DNA from: Quadrisphaera sp. INWT6 | GTDB taxonomy: Bacteria > Actinomycetota > Actinomycetes > Actinomycetales > Quadrisphaeraceae | Direction of reading: 5' to 3' | Length of the DNA stretch: 64,000 bases | NCBI RefSeq assembly: GCF_015390235.1 | Contig: NZ_VUOH01000001.1 | Coordinates: forward strand, 62,001-126,000 | Shown: in pieces, positions 28,979-36,903 of the stretch | Numbering within the stretch: the stretch's first letter is position 1 | Layout of the letters: the number at the start of each line of letters is the position of its first letter | Program-made: the position numbers and the translations under genes | The notes under the pieces: model-generated | Told to the model about the DNA's origin: nothing | The model's database searches: none | The model's input: only the letters and a program-made list of their open reading frames with translations

Positions 28979-29273
28979 GCCGCGCGACCCCCACCGGCCG
29001 GCGGGGGCGCGCGGCTCCCGGCAGCCCGGGTCGCGCCCGCGCCGCGTCGTCGCGGCGCCCACGGGAGCGCCCGGGGACGCCTTCGAGGACCGGCTGCCCA
29101 CCTGGGCCGGCGGGTCCGACGACGAGGGCGTGCCCGCCGCCGCCCCGGCCCCCGGCCCGGTGACCGGGAGCGACAGCGGGACGGTGGCGCGGGGTGGCGG
29201 GGTGGCGGACGAGCGGGCCTGGGCCGCCGAGGCCGAGCGGCTCCTGGCCGACCGCCCGCCGCACTGGGGCTGA
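28971..29273 (+). CDS. Small partner protein of the helicase-like gene
   Basis: The protein is 100 aa. The GTG start lies inside the end of the helicase-like gene (8-nt overlap), so it is translated from the same message. Most of the protein is Pro/Gly/Arg-rich and likely unstructured; the conserved-looking part is the C-terminus (DERAWAAEAERLLADRPPHW). Function unknown. A pairing with the upstream protein is inferred from the overlap. Confidence 0.65.
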   Translation: MAEPRDPHRPAGARGSRQPGSRPRRVVAAPTGAPGDAFEDRLPTWAGGSDDEGVPAAAPAPGPVTGSDSGTVARGGGVADERAWAAEAERLLADRPPHWG

Positions 29274-29292
29274 CGCCGCCGGGTCGTGCCGG

Positions 29293-30060
29293 TCAGCCGG
29301 TGACGGCCAGCACCACGCCGCCGCCGGCCGCCGCCGAGGCGACGCGCGCGGCGTCGTCCTGCGCCAGCGCCAGCACCACCGCGGTGGACCCGCCACTGCG
29401 CGTCAGCAGCCCCGAGGCGACGGGGTCGCGGTTCACGGCGAGCACCAGGGCGCTGCCGACCAGCGGCTCCGGCGGGGCCACCCCGTCGGCAGCCCACCCG
29501 CCGGACGCCTCGCCGGCCAGCACCGCGACGCGCTGACCGGGGGAGACCAGCCCCTCCGGGAGGGGAGAGGCCACCGGCACCGGCAGCGCGACCTCACCGG
29601 GCCCCAGGGACGCCAGCAGGCCCGCGGCCCCGGTGAGGCGGACGTCGGTGAGCACCTCGCCGCGGCGCACCGGGGCGGCCAGCCGCGACCCGTCGGCCAG
29701 CGCCGGGCTCGACGGGGTCAGCGCCCCCTCGGGCACCGCCTCGGCCGGCAGCCGGACCACCTGGGTGCCGGAGGCGGGGGAGGCGCCCGCAGGCAGGTCG
29801 CGGGTGGCGACGACCACCGTCGCGGCACCGGAGACCGCGGGCGGGCGCACGGCGGCGTGGACCACGAGCGCCGTGGCCGAGGCGAGCAGCAGGGCCGCCA
29901 CCGGGCGCCGCGCGCGCCGGGCGGTGCGCCTCAGGCGCCGCCACGCCGCGGCGGCCCGGTCACCGGTGCTGCCCGGGGAGCGGCCGACGGCTCCGGTGCC
30001 AGGGCGCCGGGGCTGAGGAGGAGACCAGGGGGGCGCCGGGCGCCACGGAGCGGAGGTCAT
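29293..30060 (-). CDS. SAF-domain (CpaB/RcpC-like) membrane protein
   Basis: The protein is 255 aa. A cytoplasmic Arg/Pro-rich start precedes one membrane helix (about 58-75, PVAALLLASATALVVHAAV), then a SAF domain (VVATRDLPAGASPASGTQVV) and an RcpC-type region (LVSPGQRVAVLAG). It resembles the pilus protein encoded at 3284 but sits alone, 25 kb from the pilus operon and next to fmdB. Whether it serves the same pilus or another surface process is unknown. The ATG at 30060 lacks a clear ribosome binding site. Confidence 0.8.
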   Translation of the reverse strand: MTSAPWRPAPPWSPPQPRRPGTGAVGRSPGSTGDRAAAAWRRLRRTARRARRPVAALLLASATALVVHAAVRPPAVSGAATVVVATRDLPAGASPASGTQVVRLPAEAVPEGALTPSSPALADGSRLAAPVRRGEVLTDVRLTGAAGLLASLGPGEVALPVPVASPLPEGLVSPGQRVAVLAGEASGGWAADGVAPPEPLVGSALVLAVNRDPVASGLLTRSGGSTAVVLALAQDDAARVASAAAGGGVVLAVTG

Positions 30061-30200
30061 CGCCGCAGCGTGCCGCGGCGGGGCGGGTCGCCGCTGGTGG
30101 CGGGCGCGGGTCTGTGGACAGAGGCGCCCGCCGGCCCGCCCGGGGGCGGAGCGGCGGGCGCTCGGGCGACCGGTCAGCCGGTCACGAGACCAGCAGCGGG

Positions 30201-30578
30201 TCAGCTGGAGGAGCTGGACGTCGACGGCGCGCTGGACGAGCCCGAGCCGCTGGACGACGAGCCCGAGCTCGACGAGCCGCCCGTCGAGGAGGTCGAGCTG
30301 CTGGACGAGCTGTCGCTGGACCCCGAGCTGCTGGAGCTGGAGCCGCTGGACGACGAGCCCGAGGCGCTCGAGCCGCTGGACGAGCCGCCGCTCTTGCCGT
30401 CGCTGCGGGAGTCGGTGCGGTAGAAGCCGCTGCCCTTGAAGACGACGCCCACGGCGTCGAAGCGCTTGCGCAGGCGGCCGCCGCACTCCGGGCACTCGGT
30501 CAGCGCGGCGTCGGTGAAGGACTGCTTCGCCTCGAGGCTGTGGGCGCAGGCGGTGCAGGTGTAGGCGTACGTGGGCAC
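30201..30578 (-). CDS. fmdB: FmdB-family zinc ribbon protein with Ser/Gly tail
   Basis: The protein is 125 aa. The GTG at 30578 follows GAGGAG and gives the family start VPTYAYTCTACAHSLEAKQS. The zinc ribbon has C-x2-C twice (CTAC and CPEC), then FDAVGVVFKGSGFYRTDSR, the usual FmdB end. The remaining 70 or so residues are almost pure Ser/Gly with a few Thr and Asp, probably disordered. A CIRCE operator stands 48 bp upstream, so HrcA control by heat or protein stress is likely. The exact role of FmdB proteins is not settled. Confidence 0.9.
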   Translation of the reverse strand: MPTYAYTCTACAHSLEAKQSFTDAALTECPECGGRLRKRFDAVGVVFKGSGFYRTDSRSDGKSGGSSSGSSASGSSSSGSSSSSSGSSDSSSSSSTSSTGGSSSSGSSSSGSGSSSAPSTSSSSS

Positions 30579-30625
30579 GGCAGGCTCCTCGAGCAGGTCA
30601 CGGCGGCGTCGGTCCGCGCGGCCGG

Positions 30626-30652
30626 TTGGCACTCGCGCGATCCGAGTGCCAA
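30626..30652 (-). promoter_or_regulatory. CIRCE element (HrcA operator) with overlapping -10 box
   Basis: TTGGCACTC (30626-30634), a 9-nt spacer and GAGTGCCAA (30644-30652) form a perfect inverted repeat in the CIRCE arrangement (TTAGCACTC-N9-GAGTGCTAA; actinobacterial versions often have GG). On the minus strand TAGCAT (complement of 30652-30657) is a good -10 box touching the element, so HrcA binding would block transcription start. The only gene downstream is the fmdB-like gene. Confidence 0.85.
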
Positions 30653-30722
30653 TGCTACCGCCGTCGCACGGACCGCCCGCCTGGTGGCGGCCGGTTCCAC
30701 CGCGCGGGCGCACAGCGCGGCG

Positions 30723-32288
30723 TCAGCGGGGCGGCTGGTGCTGCAGCCCGTTGCGGTCGCGCCCCGGCGCGGGGCGCAGCTCCGGCAGGCGGGTGGCGCC
30801 CGGCGTCGTCCACCCGGCCAGGCGACCGCGCTGCGACAGCGCGTGCAGCCGGTCCTCGGTGGCCTCGCGGACGCCGGCCACCGCCACCACGAGCAGGTCG
30901 TCGCCGTGGCGCAGCGTGGTCGAGCGGTCGGGCACCCGGGCGCGGCCGTCGCGGACCACCAGGGAGACCTCGGCGCCCTCCGGCAGGCGCAGCTCGAACA
31001 CCTCCAGGCCGTGCAGGTGCGAGGTGGGCCCCACCTTGACCTGCAGGACGTCGGCGCCGATCTCCTCCAGCGGGCTGGACTCGACCTCCAGGTCGCGCAC
31101 CGCGGGCTCGCTGATGCCCAGGCGCCGCGCCAGCCACGGCAGGGTCGGGGCCTGCACCAGCGTGAACGCCACGACCAGCACGAACACCATCTCGACCACG
31201 CCCTCGGTGCCCGGCACCCCCGCCGCCGCCGGGACCGTGGCCAGCACGATGGGCACCGCGCCGCGCAGCCCGCCCCAGCTGAGGATGACCTGGTCGCGCA
31301 GGGGCACCCGGAACCACGAGACCGAGAGCAGCACCGACAGCGGCCGCGCCACCAGCAGCAGCGCGAAGCCGACGACGAGCGCCGGCACCACCTGGGACGG
31401 GATGTCCTGGGGCGAGACCAGGAGCCCCAGCAGCACGAAGAGGCCGATCTGCGCCAGCCAGCCGACGCCCTCGGCGAACCCGCGGGTGGCCGGGCGGTGG
31501 GGCAGCTCGGCGTTGCCGAGCACCAGCCCGGCCAGGTACACGGCGATGAACCCCGACGTGTGCAGCTCGGCCGACAGCCCGTACGCGAGCGCGCAGACGC
31601 CCAGCACGGTGATCGGGTACAGGCCGGAGGCGGGCAGCGCCACGCGCCGCAGGCCCATCGCCCCGAGCACCCCGAGGGCCAGGCCGATCGCGGCCCCGCC
31701 CAGCAGCTCACCGGCCGCCTCGACCCCGAGGAACCACCAGGAGTGCTCACCGCCCCCACCGCCGAGCACGGTGGTGAGGGAGACGACCGCGATGACGACG
31801 GGGGCGTCGTTGAAGCCCGACTCCGCCTCCAGCAGGCCGCCCAGGCGGCTGGGCAGCGGGGCGCGGCGCAGCACGGAGAACACCGCGGCGGCGTCGGTGG
31901 AGGAGACCACCGCGCCGAGCAGCATCCCGGTGGCCCACCCGACGTCGAGGAGCAGGTGCGCCACCGTGCCGATGACGACGATCGAGATGACCGTCCCCAG
32001 CGTCGCGAGCAGGGCCGCCGGGGCGATGGCCCCCCGGATGGACGACCACCGCGTGGTCAGCCCGCCCTCGGCGAGGATCAGCACCAGCGCGGCGTAGCCG
32101 AGCACCTGGGTGAGGTCGTAGTCGTCGAACTGGATGCCCAGCCCGTCCTCGCCGATGGCGACGCCCAGGGCCAGGTAGAGCAGCAGCGACGGGGTGCCGG
32201 TGCCGACCGAGAGGCGGACGGCGAACACCGCGGCCACCAGCACGAGGGCGCCCAGCAGGACGGCGGTGTTGAGGTCGTCGACCGTCAA
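30723..32288 (-). CDS. CPA1-family potassium/proton antiporter (CvrA/NhaP2-like)
   Basis: The protein is 521 aa. About twelve membrane helices occupy residues 1-400, with the transport-site signature EAESGFNDAPVVIAVV. A C-terminal cytoplasmic TrkA_C-type domain (about 405-490, SSPLEEIGADVLQVKVG) suggests nucleotide or ligand gating. The NhaP2/CvrA family exports K+ or Na+ in exchange for protons and helps with osmotic shifts. A good -10 box (TAGCGT, complement of 32349-32354) lies about 60 nt upstream of the start. Confidence 0.88.
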   Translation of the reverse strand: MTVDDLNTAVLLGALVLVAAVFAVRLSVGTGTPSLLLYLALGVAIGEDGLGIQFDDYDLTQVLGYAALVLILAEGGLTTRWSSIRGAIAPAALLATLGTVISIVVIGTVAHLLLDVGWATGMLLGAVVSSTDAAAVFSVLRRAPLPSRLGGLLEAESGFNDAPVVIAVVSLTTVLGGGGGEHSWWFLGVEAAGELLGGAAIGLALGVLGAMGLRRVALPASGLYPITVLGVCALAYGLSAELHTSGFIAVYLAGLVLGNAELPHRPATRGFAEGVGWLAQIGLFVLLGLLVSPQDIPSQVVPALVVGFALLLVARPLSVLLSVSWFRVPLRDQVILSWGGLRGAVPIVLATVPAAAGVPGTEGVVEMVFVLVVAFTLVQAPTLPWLARRLGISEPAVRDLEVESSPLEEIGADVLQVKVGPTSHLHGLEVFELRLPEGAEVSLVVRDGRARVPDRSTTLRHGDDLLVVAVAGVREATEDRLHALSQRGRLAGWTTPGATRLPELRPAPGRDRNGLQHQPPR

Positions 32289-32383: not shown

Positions 32384-33001
32384 TCACCGCAGGTCGTGCC
32401 ACCCCGACGGCGTGAGGGCCGCGTCGACCGGGACGTCGTGGGCCTCACGCGGCAGCGACCCGGCGGGCAGGAGCTCGGGGTCGCGGACCACCGCCGCCAG
32501 CACCGGCCGCCCCGGGCGGGTGGGGGGCAGGAGGGCCAGGGTCCGGTCGTAGTGCCCGCCGCCCTGGCCCAGGCGCGTGCCGGCGCCGTCGACCGCCAGC
32601 GCCGGGAGCAGCACCACCGCGGCGTCGTCGACCCCCTCGGGCCGGTGGGTCTCGCCGCCGGCGGCGCCGGGCCCGTCGGCGGCGGCGACGTCCAGCCGCC
32701 AGGCCAGGGGAGCGTCGGGCCCGACCACCACCGGCAGGACGACGACGACGCCCCGCGCCGCCAGCGCCGCGCGCAGCCCTCGCGTGCCGGGCTCGGTCGG
32801 CGTCGCGTCGTACAGCGCCACCACCGACCCCGCCGTCAGCGCCGCGAGCGGGGACCCCGGACCCAGCGCCGCCGCGGCCAGGTCGGCGTCGAGGGCGGCG
32901 CGCTCGTCGTCGTCCAGCGCCCGGCGGGCGGCGCGCACCCCGGCGCGCAGCCCTCGCTTGGCGTCCGGTCCGGTGGTCGACGGCGATCCGGCTGCTCCCA
33001 C
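32384..33001 (-). CDS. 5-formyltetrahydrofolate cyclo-ligase
   Basis: The protein is 205 aa. The family signature is near the end: GAGTRLGQGGGHYDRTLALL, with the folate/ATP-binding glycines, and an N-terminal basic helix region (DAKRGLRAGVRAARRALDD). The enzyme uses ATP to turn 5-formyl-THF into 5,10-methenyl-THF. It is divergent from galU, a neighbourhood common in actinobacteria. The GTG at 33001 is the best-fitting start, but its ribosome binding site is weak. Confidence 0.88.
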   Translation of the reverse strand: MGAAGSPSTTGPDAKRGLRAGVRAARRALDDDERAALDADLAAAALGPGSPLAALTAGSVVALYDATPTEPGTRGLRAALAARGVVVVLPVVVGPDAPLAWRLDVAAADGPGAAGGETHRPEGVDDAAVVLLPALAVDGAGTRLGQGGGHYDRTLALLPPTRPGRPVLAAVVRDPELLPAGSLPREAHDVPVDAALTPSGWHDLR

Positions 33002-33050
33002 CGGCTGATGGTCCCCTGCGCGCGAGCCGTGCGGCGCAGCGCCCGCCCGA

Positions 33051-33064
33051 TAGCCTCGTGGCCC
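33051..33064 (+). promoter_or_regulatory. -10 box close to the galU start
   Basis: TAGCCT (33051-33056) lies 8 nt before the ATG at 33065, leaving room for at most a leader of one or two bases. It is a likely leaderless or near-leaderless promoter for galU and the genes after it. Confidence 0.5.
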
Positions 33065-34042
33065 ATGAGCCCTGCTGGTCCGCAGTCCCGCGCAGTCCGC
33101 AAGGCCGTCGTCCCCGCAGCGGGACTCGGCACGCGCTTCCTGCCCTTCACCAAGTCGACGCCGAAGGAGATGCTCCCGGTCGTCGACAAGCCCGCCATCC
33201 AGTACGTGGTGGAGGAGGCCGTGTCCGCCGGCATCACCGACGTGCTCATGGTCGTGGGCCGCACCAAGCGCCCGCTGGAGGACCACTTCGACGTCGTCCC
33301 CGAGCTGGAGGCCAACCTCGCGGCCAAGGGCGACTCCACGAAGCTCGCGCTCGTCCACCGGAGCACCGAGCTCGCCGACGTCCACTACGTGCGCCAGCAC
33401 GAGGCCAAGGGCCTCGGGCACGCCGTCCTGGCCGGCAAGCACCACGTGGGCGACGAGCCCTTCGCCGTCCTGCTCGGCGACGACCTCATCGACGAGCGCG
33501 ACGCGCTGCTCGCCCGCCTGGTCGAGGTGCAGCAGACCTACGGCGGCTCCGTCGTGGCGCTGCTGGAGGTGCCGCAGGAGACCGTCAACATGTACGGCTG
33601 CGCGGACCTGGCCCCCGACGAGGCCAGCGAGGGCGACGACGACGTGGTGCGCCTGAAGGGCATGGTCGAGAAGCCGGACCCGGCCGACGCGCCCAGCAAC
33701 CTCGCCGTCATCGGCCGCTACGTGCTCAGCCCGGCCGTCTTCGAGGTGCTCGAGAACACCGCCCCCGGCAAGGGCGGCGAGATCCAGCTGACCGACGCCC
33801 TCGAGACCCTCGCGGGCATGCCGGCGGAGGCCGGCGGCGGGTTGCGCGGCGTCGTGTTCCGCGGCCGCCGCTACGACACCGGCGACAAGCTCGACTACCT
33901 CAAGACGGTCGTGCGCCTGGCGTCGGGCCGCGAGGACGTCGGCGCCGAGTTCAACGCCTGGCTGGGCGAGTGGGTGGCCTCGGGCTTCGACACCGAGCAG
34001 CCGACCCACGCCCGCCCCGACGCCCCGTCAGCGAAGGCCTGA
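33065..34042 (+). CDS. galU: UTP-glucose-1-phosphate uridylyltransferase
   Basis: The protein is 325 aa. The nucleotidyltransferase signature is intact: KAVVPAAGLGTRFLPFTKST then PKEMLPVVDKPAIQYVVEEA, followed by the LLGDDLID metal site and MVEKPDP. It makes UDP-glucose for glycans and trehalose. Length is standard. MoeA starts 9 nt after the stop, so the gene heads a galU-moeA-moaC-mog-rimJ operon, an order seen in other actinobacteria. Confidence 0.95.
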   Translation: MSPAGPQSRAVRKAVVPAAGLGTRFLPFTKSTPKEMLPVVDKPAIQYVVEEAVSAGITDVLMVVGRTKRPLEDHFDVVPELEANLAAKGDSTKLALVHRSTELADVHYVRQHEAKGLGHAVLAGKHHVGDEPFAVLLGDDLIDERDALLARLVEVQQTYGGSVVALLEVPQETVNMYGCADLAPDEASEGDDDVVRLKGMVEKPDPADAPSNLAVIGRYVLSPAVFEVLENTAPGKGGEIQLTDALETLAGMPAEAGGGLRGVVFRGRRYDTGDKLDYLKTVVRLASGREDVGAEFNAWLGEWVASGFDTEQPTHARPDAPSAKA

Positions 34043-34051
34043 GCAGAGCCG

Positions 34052-35287
34052 ATGCGCACGGTCGAGGAGCACCTGGCTGCGTGCCTGGCTGCCGTCTCCC
34101 CCCTCGCCCCCGTCGAGACCGCCCTGCTCGACGCCGTCGACTGCGTCCTGGCCGAGGACGTCGTCGCGACGTCGTCCCTGCCGGCCTTCGACGGCTCCGC
34201 CATGGACGGGTACGCGCTCCGCGCGGCTGACGTGGCCGGCGCCTCCCCGGAGGCGCCGGTCTCGCTGCCGGTCGTGGCCGACCTGCCCGCCGGCGTCCGC
34301 GAGGTCACCCCGCTGGCCGCCGGCGCCGCGGCGCGCATCATGACCGGCGCCCCGGTGCCGCCGGGGGCCACCGCCGTCGTCGCCGTCGAGGACACCGACG
34401 GCGGCGTGGCCACGGTGCTCGTGCGCCGCGCCGCACGCGACGGCCAGCACGTGCGCCGCGCCGGCGAGGACGTGCGCCCCGGCGCCACCCTGGTGCCCTC
34501 GGGCACCCGGCTCACCGTCCGCCACGTCGCACTGCTGGCGGCCGCCGGCCGCGAGCGGGTGAAGGTCCTCCCGAAGCCCCGCGTGGCCGTGCTGAGCACC
34601 GGCAGCGAGCTGGTCGAGCCCGGACGCCCCGCCGGCTTCGGGCAGGTCGTCGACGCCAACTCCACGATGCTCACGGCCGCAGCGCTCGACGCGGGCGCGC
34701 GGGCGACGCGGGTCGGGATCGTCGACGACGACCCGCAGCGCCTCCTGCGCGTGCTGGAGGGGCAGCTGGGCCAGGCCGACCTGGTCATCACCTCCGGCGG
34801 CGTCAGCGCCGGCGCGTACGACGTGGTGAAGGAGGTGCTCACGCGGATGGGCACCGTCGAGTTCACCAAGGTCGCGATGCAGCCGGGCATGCCGCAGGGG
34901 CTCGGGCGCATCACGTCGTCGACCAACGGGTCGGTGCCGATCTTCACGCTGCCGGGCAACCCCGTCAGCGCGTACGTGTCCTTCGAGGTCTTCGTGCGGC
35001 CCGCGCTGCGGAAGGTCATGGGGGAGTCGCAGCTGCACCGGCCGACGGTGGTGGCCACCGCCACCCAGGGCTGGGCGTCCCCGCCGGGGAAGCGCCAGTT
35101 CACACGCGCCGTCGTCACCAGCGACGACGACGGCCGCCCCCGCGTGCGGCCCGCCGGCGGACCCGGGTCGCACCTGGTGGCCGGCATGGCCGGCGCCAAC
35201 GCCCTCGCCGTGACCGGCGAGGACACGACCGCCGTGGAGCCCGGTGGCGTGGTGCGCTGCATCCTGCTGGAGCGGGGCCGGCCGTGA
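34052..35287 (+). CDS. moeA: Molybdopterin molybdenumtransferase MoeA
   Basis: The protein is 411 aa. Conserved MoeA segments are in order: LPAFDGSAMDGYALRAADV, GAAARIMTGAPVPPGATAVV, the MoCF domain VLSTGSELVEPG, DLVITSGGVSAGAYDVVKEV and LPGNPVSAYVSFEVFVRPAL. It inserts molybdate into adenylated molybdopterin. It overlaps moaC as GTGA. A client enzyme, the sulfite-oxidase-like protein, is encoded at 18.6 kb. Confidence 0.95.
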   Translation: MRTVEEHLAACLAAVSPLAPVETALLDAVDCVLAEDVVATSSLPAFDGSAMDGYALRAADVAGASPEAPVSLPVVADLPAGVREVTPLAAGAAARIMTGAPVPPGATAVVAVEDTDGGVATVLVRRAARDGQHVRRAGEDVRPGATLVPSGTRLTVRHVALLAAAGRERVKVLPKPRVAVLSTGSELVEPGRPAGFGQVVDANSTMLTAAALDAGARATRVGIVDDDPQRLLRVLEGQLGQADLVITSGGVSAGAYDVVKEVLTRMGTVEFTKVAMQPGMPQGLGRITSSTNGSVPIFTLPGNPVSAYVSFEVFVRPALRKVMGESQLHRPTVVATATQGWASPPGKRQFTRAVVTSDDDGRPRVRPAGGPGSHLVAGMAGANALAVTGEDTTAVEPGGVVRCILLERGRP

Positions 35288-35802
35288 GCCACCAGCCCGG
35301 CCCGCAGGGCCAGCAGCCCAGCCAGAAGGGGTTCCCGCACCTCGACGTCGGCGGGAACGCCCGCATGGTCGACGTCAGCGCCAAGGACGTGACGGTCCGC
35401 GAGGCCCGCGCCGAGGGGTTCGTGGTCTGCTCCGCCGAGGTCGTCGCGGCCCTGCTCGACCGCACGGTGCCCAAGGGCGACGCGCTCGCCGTCGCCCGCA
35501 TCGCGGGCATCCAGGCGGCCAAGCGCACCCCCGAGCTGGTGCCGCTGGCGCACCCGGTGGCGGTGCACGCCGTCGACGTCGTCGCCGAGGTCAGCGCCGA
35601 CGCCGCACGGCCCGGCGTGGCGCTGATGGCGACGGTCCGCACCGCCGACCGCACGGGCGTCGAGATGGAGGCGCTCACCGCCGTCGCCGTCGCCGGGCTG
35701 GCGCTGGTCGACATGGTGAAGGGCCTCGACAGGCGCGCGGAGATCACGGGCGTGCGCGTGGTCGCGAAGAGCGGGGGGCGCTCCGGTGACTGGCACCGCT
35801 GA
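35284..35802 (+). CDS. moaC: Cyclic pyranopterin monophosphate synthase MoaC
   Basis: The protein is 172 aa. Family motifs: FPHLDVGGNARMVDVSAKDV, AGIQAAKRTPELVPLAHPVA and TVRTADRTGVEMEALTAVAV, with DMVKGLDR near the end. MoaC performs the second half of the first step of molybdenum cofactor synthesis; its partner MoaA is not in the window. The start overlaps the moeA stop, and the end overlaps the mog-like gene by 17 nt. Confidence 0.95.
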   Translation: MSHQPGPQGQQPSQKGFPHLDVGGNARMVDVSAKDVTVREARAEGFVVCSAEVVAALLDRTVPKGDALAVARIAGIQAAKRTPELVPLAHPVAVHAVDVVAEVSADAARPGVALMATVRTADRTGVEMEALTAVAVAGLALVDMVKGLDRRAEITGVRVVAKSGGRSGDWHR

Positions 35803-36310
35803 CCCCGCCCCCGCCGCGGGCGGGGCGGCGCCGAGGGCGCTGGTGGTCACCGTCAGCAACCGCGCGGCGGCCGGCGTCTACGAGGACACCGCCGGTCCGG
35901 TGCTGGTCGCAGGCCTGCGGGAGGCCGGGCTGGACGTCGACGGCCCCCAGGTCGTCCGCGACGGCGACCCGGTGGGCGCCGCGCTGCGTGCGGCCGTCGC
36001 CGCCGGGTACGACGTCGTCGTGACCACCGGCGGCACGGGCCTCAACCCGCACGACGCCACCCCCGAGCAGACCGCGCCGCTCCTCGACCGCCAGGTGCCC
36101 GGCATCGCCGAGGCCCTGCGCGCCACCGGTCTCGCCGGGGGCGTGCCCACCGCCGTCCTCTCGCGGGGCCTGGCGGGGATGGCCGGGCGCACGCTGGTCG
36201 TCAACGTCGCCGGCTCGCCGGGCGCCTGCCGCGACGCCGTCGGCCTGCTCGCCGCGGTGCTCCCGCACGCCGTCGACCAGCGCCGCGGCGGCGACCACCC
36301 CCGCACGTGA
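35786..36310 (+). CDS. mog: MoaB/Mog-type molybdopterin adenylyltransferase
   Basis: The protein is 174 aa. The MoCF fold motifs are clear: ALVVTVSNRAAAGVYEDTAG, DVVVTTGGTGLNPHDATPEQ and VVNVAGSPGACRDAV. This step adenylates molybdopterin before MoeA inserts the metal. The GTG start lies 17 nt inside moaC, implying coupled translation, and the end overlaps the acetyltransferase gene by 4 nt. Confidence 0.92.
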   Translation: MTGTADPAPAAGGAAPRALVVTVSNRAAAGVYEDTAGPVLVAGLREAGLDVDGPQVVRDGDPVGAALRAAVAAGYDVVVTTGGTGLNPHDATPEQTAPLLDRQVPGIAEALRATGLAGGVPTAVLSRGLAGMAGRTLVVNVAGSPGACRDAVGLLAAVLPHAVDQRRGGDHPRT

Positions 36311-36903
36311 GCGCTCCCGGGTGGCCTGCCGTCCTGCGCGACGGCGACCTGGTCCTCCGCCCCCTGCGCCGCGGCGACGCTACCGCGTGGCGGTCGGTGC
36401 GCGCCGCGAACGCCACCTGGCTGCGCCCCTGGGAGGCCACCGACCCCGACGGCACCCCGCCGGTCCGCACCTTCGGCGGCCTGGTGCGCGAGCTCTCGCG
36501 CCAGGGCGGGTCGGGGACGGCGATGCCGTTCGCGCTCGAGGTCGACGGCGCGCTCGCCGGGCAGGTCACGGTCGGCGGGATCACCTGGGGCGCGATGCGC
36601 TCGGCGCACATCGGCTACTGGATCGACGGGCGGCTCGCGGGGCGCGGGCACGTCCCGACGGCGGTCGCGCTGGTCACCGACCACTGCCTGCGCACCGGGC
36701 TGCACCGCCTCGAGGTGAACATCCGCCCCGAGAACGCCGCGAGCCTGCGGGTGGTCGAGAAGCTGGGGTTCCGGCCCGAGGGGCTGCGCGAGCGGTTCCT
36801 GCACATCGACGGCGCCTGGTGCGACCACCTCACCTTCGCGCTGACCCGTGACGAGCTGCCCCACGGCCTGCTGGCCCGGTACCGCACCTCCTCCCCCCGC
36901 TGA
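36307..36903 (+). CDS. RimJ-like GNAT acetyltransferase
   Basis: The protein is 198 aa with the layout of the RimJ/RimL N-acetyltransferases: an N-terminal LRPLRRGDATAWRSVRAANA segment, the GYWIDGRLAGRGHVPTAVAL acetyl-CoA region and RLEVNIRPENAASLRVVEKL near the end. The substrate may be the N-terminus of a ribosomal protein, as in RimJ, but this is not proven. It is the last gene of the galU-moeA operon and ends just before a 167-bp inverted-repeat element. Confidence 0.9.
   Translation: MSAPGWPAVLRDGDLVLRPLRRGDATAWRSVRAANATWLRPWEATDPDGTPPVRTFGGLVRELSRQGGSGTAMPFALEVDGALAGQVTVGGITWGAMRSAHIGYWIDGRLAGRGHVPTAVALVTDHCLRTGLHRLEVNIRPENAASLRVVEKLGFRPEGLRERFLHIDGAWCDHLTFALTRDELPHGLLARYRTSSPR

Follow-up and report, generated by a model that had tools for sequence, protein, structure and literature searches.

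The fmdB gene of the 64-kb window (the whole stretch of DNA that was analysed) is preceded by a CIRCE operator, the predicted binding site of HrcA. It appears very probable (roughly 0.85) that this site belongs to a heat-shock promoter which is under HrcA control and drives the gene of a Ruc-type FmdB protein; the window would then hold a counterpart of Mycobacterium tuberculosis Rv0991c. By analogy with that system, HrcA binding and heat induction of the gene, as well as disorder and chaperone activity of its product, would be expected in this organism. The mechanism is already published for M. tuberculosis, and what is added here is the breadth of the arrangement, the geometry of the promoter, and an operator variant, GCAGTC in the left arm, that recurs among relatives. 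A literature search, to which subscription journals were mostly closed, returned nothing on the breadth, on the operator-on-promoter geometry, or on the operator variant. Because this search was partial, priority for breadth, geometry, and variant is not claimed.

The operator and the predicted HrcA regulon of the genome

The CIRCE consensus is a 9-bp inverted repeat, TTAGCACTC-N9-GAGTGCTAA. The window site departs from it by two mismatches and from its R/Y form by none. An earlier note on this DNA had described the site as a perfect CIRCE, and it is indeed an exact TTGGCACTC-N9-GAGTGCCAA by pattern matching. No second CIRCE turns up in the window when up to 3 mismatches are allowed, and none occurred in any of the dinucleotide-preserving shuffles of the window (Table 1). 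The earlier note had also placed the operator 48 bp before the fmdB start. The upstream position holds, but the gap to the GTG codon of this minus-strand gene counts 47 nt.

Table 1. Features of the window around the CIRCE operator.
Feature	Positions	Strand	Remarks
SAF/RcpC-domain (CpaB-like) gene	29293..30060	(-)	PF16976 and PF08666, both barely above cut-off
FmdB-family (Ruc-like) protein gene	30201..30578	(-)	125 aa; GTG start at 30578; stop codon ends at 30201
CIRCE operator, predicted HrcA site	30626..30652	(-)	perfect 9-9-9 inverted repeat; 0 in 100 shuffles
Predicted -10 hexamer TAGCAT	30652..30657	(-)	final T is the first base of CIRCE
5-formyltetrahydrofolate cyclo-ligase gene	32384..33010	(-)	PF01812; gene start uncertain

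The proposal that HrcA acts at this site presupposes hrcA and groE CIRCE sites elsewhere in the genome, and both were found. The genome searched, an assembly of 8 contigs that adds up to 4.2 Mb and is 91% complete, carries CIRCE at four places within 3 mismatches. Besides the window site, two of these precede groES-groEL, and one overlaps the longest-frame start of hrcA. Both hrcA and groEL are present in a single copy, and the gene next after hrcA is dnaJ-like (named by eye). The combination of hrcA with groE CIRCE sites in one genome points to an HrcA regulon, and fmdB shares the operator of its classical members groES-groEL and hrcA. The arrangement differs in number, groES having two CIRCE sites and fmdB one.

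The FmdB protein and its likely role

The product of the gene matches PF09723 (Zn_ribbon_8, E 3.7e-12) and TIGR02605 (FmdB family zinc ribbon, E 2.7e-16), which bears out the earlier claim that a zinc-ribbon gene of the fmdB family lies behind the CIRCE. A Shine-Dalgarno-like GAGGAG stands directly upstream of the GTG codon. The zinc-ribbon cysteines are Cys 8, 11, 29, and 32 (CxxC-N17-CxxC). The tail that follows residue 58 is 67 residues long, of which 46 are Ser and 12 are Gly, and this hydrophilic, low-complexity composition suggests that it is probably disordered. In its cysteines, its two family matches, and its tail composition, the protein agrees with the description of the FmdB/Ruc family as an N-terminal zinc ribbon followed by a hydrophilic tail, which in that description has no secondary structure. 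A second, weaker Zn_ribbon_8 match in the genome (L178, G000:C1:906069-906179) lies away from all four CIRCE sites.

The closest studied system is ruc (Rv0991c) of M. tuberculosis. According to PMC7448276, ruc is repressed by HrcA and induced by heat with a contribution from SigH, and the SigH and HrcA sites overlap before the gene. Strong induction needs Mpa, and the authors infer from this a proteasomal degradation of HrcA. The same paper describes Ruc as a disordered protein that binds one zinc through its cysteines. On oxidation it gains chaperone activity and aids the Hsp70 system, an oxidation-dependent holdase activity that is reported to feed DnaK. In a second paper, rv0991c-rv0990c is among the operons under direct HrcA control (PMC8557902).

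How closely does the window resemble this system? Ruc and the window protein share an FmdB-type zinc ribbon with cysteines at 8, 11, 29, and 32 (the Ruc numbers come from the strain table of PMC7448276). The stretches of Ruc around its two CxxC motifs, read from primers given in that paper, resemble the window protein by eye. Both systems also combine a hydrophilic tail with an HrcA site that overlaps the promoter, the window site being a predicted one. The genome contains a pup gene and showed no match to HSP33 (4.2 Mb searched, 91% complete), which accords with the statements of PMC7448276 on actinobacteria, where Hsp33 is described as rare. There are differences as well. The window tail has 67 residues as against roughly 7-61 for the homologues covered in PMC7448276, and the downstream gene in the window is SAF/RcpC-like, the partner of rv0991c in its operon being rv0990c.

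Because of the M. tuberculosis Ruc data, the most likely mechanism here is one in which protein damage relieves HrcA repression and a redox-activated holdase is thereby produced. In the absence of stress, HrcA on the CIRCE would cover the end of the -10 hexamer together with the probable transcription start and would keep RNA polymerase off. Upon heat or protein damage HrcA would lose its activity, and fmdB would be turned on together with groES-groEL and hrcA. For M. tuberculosis, removal of HrcA via the Pup-proteasome route is proposed as well. The FmdB product, consisting of a zinc ribbon and a Ser/Gly tail, would then, once its cysteines have been oxidised, likely bind unfolded proteins as a holdase and likely pass these clients to DnaK. 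The earlier note had assigned FmdB to the protein-folding stress response. That assignment gains support because the M. tuberculosis homologue was found by experiment to be an HrcA-repressed, heat-induced chaperone (PMC7448276).

One alternative is that the operator is genuine and bound by HrcA, but FmdB is not a chaperone. The protein would then have some other role, for instance that of a regulator as the name FmdB implies, and would merely share the timing of the heat-shock response. The tails of FmdB proteins diverge greatly in sequence among homologues (best 80 of 565 loci), and in PMC7448276 chaperone activity was measured in one member, M. tuberculosis Ruc, which leaves room for such a role. 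However, the cysteines of Ruc stand at the same positions as those of the window FmdB, and PMC7448276 reports ruc genes beside chaperone genes in other phyla. The alternative is therefore judged unlikely, and a chaperone under HrcA control is the preferred reading. The M. tuberculosis ruc mutant displayed no strong defect in published tests. HrcA-type operators before Ruc-type genes are not confined to M. tuberculosis but occur widely among actinobacteria, and harmless laboratory members of this group could serve to study what Ruc proteins do.

The promoter at the operator

The earlier note had claimed that a -10 box overlaps the CIRCE, and the predicted hexamer TAGCAT does share one T with it. 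The best -35 candidate for the window fmdB promoter scores 2/6, and a generic promoter scan of 29250-30800 returned no promoter. Because of this weak -35 and the empty scan, the -10 call leans mainly on a position that is common to relatives.

This position was followed in a set of 90 fmdB sites, consisting of 74 from the best 80 of 565 loci, 15 from genomes negative for a composite pattern described below, and the window site. A motif [TC]AnnAT whose final T coincides with the first CIRCE base is present at 43 of the 90 sites, including the window, and at 8 of 4486 random places. A SigH/SigR-like element, GGAAY-N18-GTT, is present at the CIRCE of 8 of the 90 sites and at 2 of 4486 random places. 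Both motifs were picked after inspection of the same sites in which these counts were made. By the strict test, 39 of the 90 sites have neither motif. The GTT of the SigH/SigR-like element overlaps the first two CIRCE bases in seven cases and abuts the operator in one. This form belongs to six Streptomycetaceae-type loci (L020, L057, L065, L067, L070, and L078) and to two genomes (G003 and G031) of family f12, which we infer to be the mycobacterial family. The SigH/SigR-like GTT at these 8 of 90 CIRCEs fits the arrangement published for M. tuberculosis ruc, in which the SigH site and the HrcA site overlap (PMC7448276).

The window promoter is of the other kind. A SigH-type element GGAAY-N17-20-GTT was looked for at the window CIRCE (row L116) and was not found, and a SigH-type promoter was rejected for the window. 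A -10-like TAGCAT stands at the operator in the window, in contrast to the SigH/HrcA overlap in M. tuberculosis (PMC7448276). Two further layouts were observed among the relatives. In Micromonosporaceae-type loci (L007-L010, L015, L024, and L029-L033), TGGACG-N17-18-CA[AC]CAT lies upstream of fmdB, at -29 to +1 relative to the operator, and its final T falls on the CIRCE. The second layout belongs to six Streptomycetaceae-type loci (L020, L034, L057, L065, L070, and L078), where the right arm passes without a gap into the ribosome-binding site (GAGTGCCAGGAGGA) and lies 9-11 nt ahead of the fmdB start codon. At five of these six, the left end of the CIRCE is in addition overlapped by GGAAT-N18-GTT.

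Could the repeat work chiefly in the mRNA leader, as a hairpin that affects stability or ribosome access, and not as a DNA operator? Such a function could be suspected from the Streptomyces-type loci, whose right arm adjoins the ribosome-binding site so close to the start codon. However, the window CIRCE is 47 nt away from its start codon, the probable transcript start, as judged from the -10 position, falls inside the repeat, and at 15 of 89 sites the GCAGTC left-arm variant breaks one pair of the would-be hairpin. A leader function is thus highly improbable.

Distribution, operator variant, and neighbouring genes

Conservation in relatives, which the earlier note had made a test of its claim, gave a mixed picture, being high among similar fmdB loci and low within the sampled part of the order. 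The loci surveyed were the best 80 of 565 confirmed relatives, taken from genome contigs, and this set is biased to close relatives because it is the best 80 of 565. A CIRCE with at most 2 mismatches lies within 300 nt upstream of fmdB in 74 of these best 80 of 565 loci (24 perfect, 44 with one mismatch, and 6 with two), and the remaining 6 have none. Elsewhere in the same best 80 of 565 loci, no site of that quality occurred in 744,329 positions. The most similar named locus among them comes from a Quadrisphaera MAG (88% identity), and its CIRCE shows two mismatches.

A broader view comes from composite patterns. The strict pattern, made up of the operator, a gap, a start codon, and P-T-Y, was searched for in 394 genomes of the class and matched in 102, among them the genome that holds the window; these are raw pattern matches, and one of them (G311) looks false, its start motif lying inside a second CIRCE. 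Within the window's order the strict pattern was matched in 6 of 39 genomes, a sample from which the window's family and genus are absent. A pattern with a looser operator was matched in 24 of 296 genomes of a phylum sample (raw matches), namely in 13 of 26 within the class and in 11 of the 270 from elsewhere in the phylum, these 11 representing 7 families. Reversed composite patterns gave 0 matches in the class and phylum samples.

The genomes negative for the strict pattern were represented by 29 of 292, hand-picked to spread over families. hrcA is present in all 29, although the match in G025 covers part of the profile, and fmdB is present in 28, the exception being G137. A CIRCE with 1-2 mismatches precedes fmdB in 15 of these 28 genomes, and 13 of the 28 have no CIRCE there. 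Among those of the same order, CIRCE is present in 2 of 11 and missing in 9 of 11. Although widespread, the CIRCE-fmdB link is patchy, and it is weak among the genomes sampled from the window's order. The FmdB family can do without HrcA control, because the site is missing in 6 of the best 80 of 565 loci and in 13 of the 28 genomes despite the presence of hrcA.

The absence of the site from those 13 of 28 hrcA-bearing genomes, and of the strict pattern from 33 of 39 same-order genomes, might suggest that the inverted repeat arose by chance or is a relict and regulates nothing, but this is the least credible of the readings, since a chance match is ruled out by the shuffles (0/100) and by the 0 sites elsewhere in 744,329 positions of the best 80 of 565 fmdB loci, since 74 of those loci carry a CIRCE upstream of fmdB, and since the copy in this genome is perfect.

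The fmdB operators of relatives also differ from their groES operators. At left-arm position 7, G replaces C (GCAGTC) in 15 of 89 distinct fmdB sites as against 1 of 44 groES sites, so that the G is commoner at fmdB (Fisher p 0.02, relatedness ignored). The groES comparison covered the best groES locus per genome in the pattern-negative set minus G137 plus G134, and two of 30 (G012 and G016) were dropped for a missing start motif. In the pattern-negative set, 8 genomes have a GCAGTC fmdB site; groES was located in 7 of them, and all 7 have C there. The groES sites vary too: right-arm position 21 is changed in 4 of 44 versus 4 of 89 at fmdB, and the first base of the groES CIRCE is often C. The left arm of the window CIRCE has the full form. 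The sequence GCAGTC-N9-GAGTGC was seen at fmdB in several lineages (L006, L022, L036, L049, L073, L077, L085, L118, L121, L122, L125, L127, L133, L140, and L142).

A tentative scenario, to which rather less than even odds are given, is that HrcA control of fmdB/ruc is old in Actinomycetota and was lost in several lineages. The operator would have stayed fixed on the -10 while the sigma input was swapped, being housekeeping-like in many lineages and SigH/SigR-like in Streptomycetaceae and the two f12 genomes. The fmdB operator would also have been repeatedly weakened by GCAGTC, a change that the groES operators in these genomes lack, and the redox chaperone would thereby be released earlier in stress than GroE.

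The genes next to fmdB show different degrees of conservation. In 22 of the best 80 of 565 fmdB loci, a homologue of the SAF/RcpC-domain gene lies downstream in the same orientation. A scan of 29250-30800 showed no terminator-like site, and the SAF/RcpC-domain gene is possibly co-transcribed with fmdB. On the other side, 61 of the best 80 of 565 loci have a homologue of the cyclo-ligase gene upstream in the same orientation; it is a conserved upstream neighbour outside the fmdB regulatory unit. Between fmdB and the cyclo-ligase gene, the window holds a gene for a Na+/H+ exchanger that includes a TrkA_C domain (30723-32288), and homologues of this gene occur in 11 of the best 80 of 565 loci. 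The region 32384-36903 contains 5-FTHF cyclo-ligase, moeA, and GNAT acetyltransferase genes (by Pfam) and galU-, moaC-, and mog-like genes (by eye), a set that presumably resembles the Rv0992c-Rv0995 region of M. tuberculosis.
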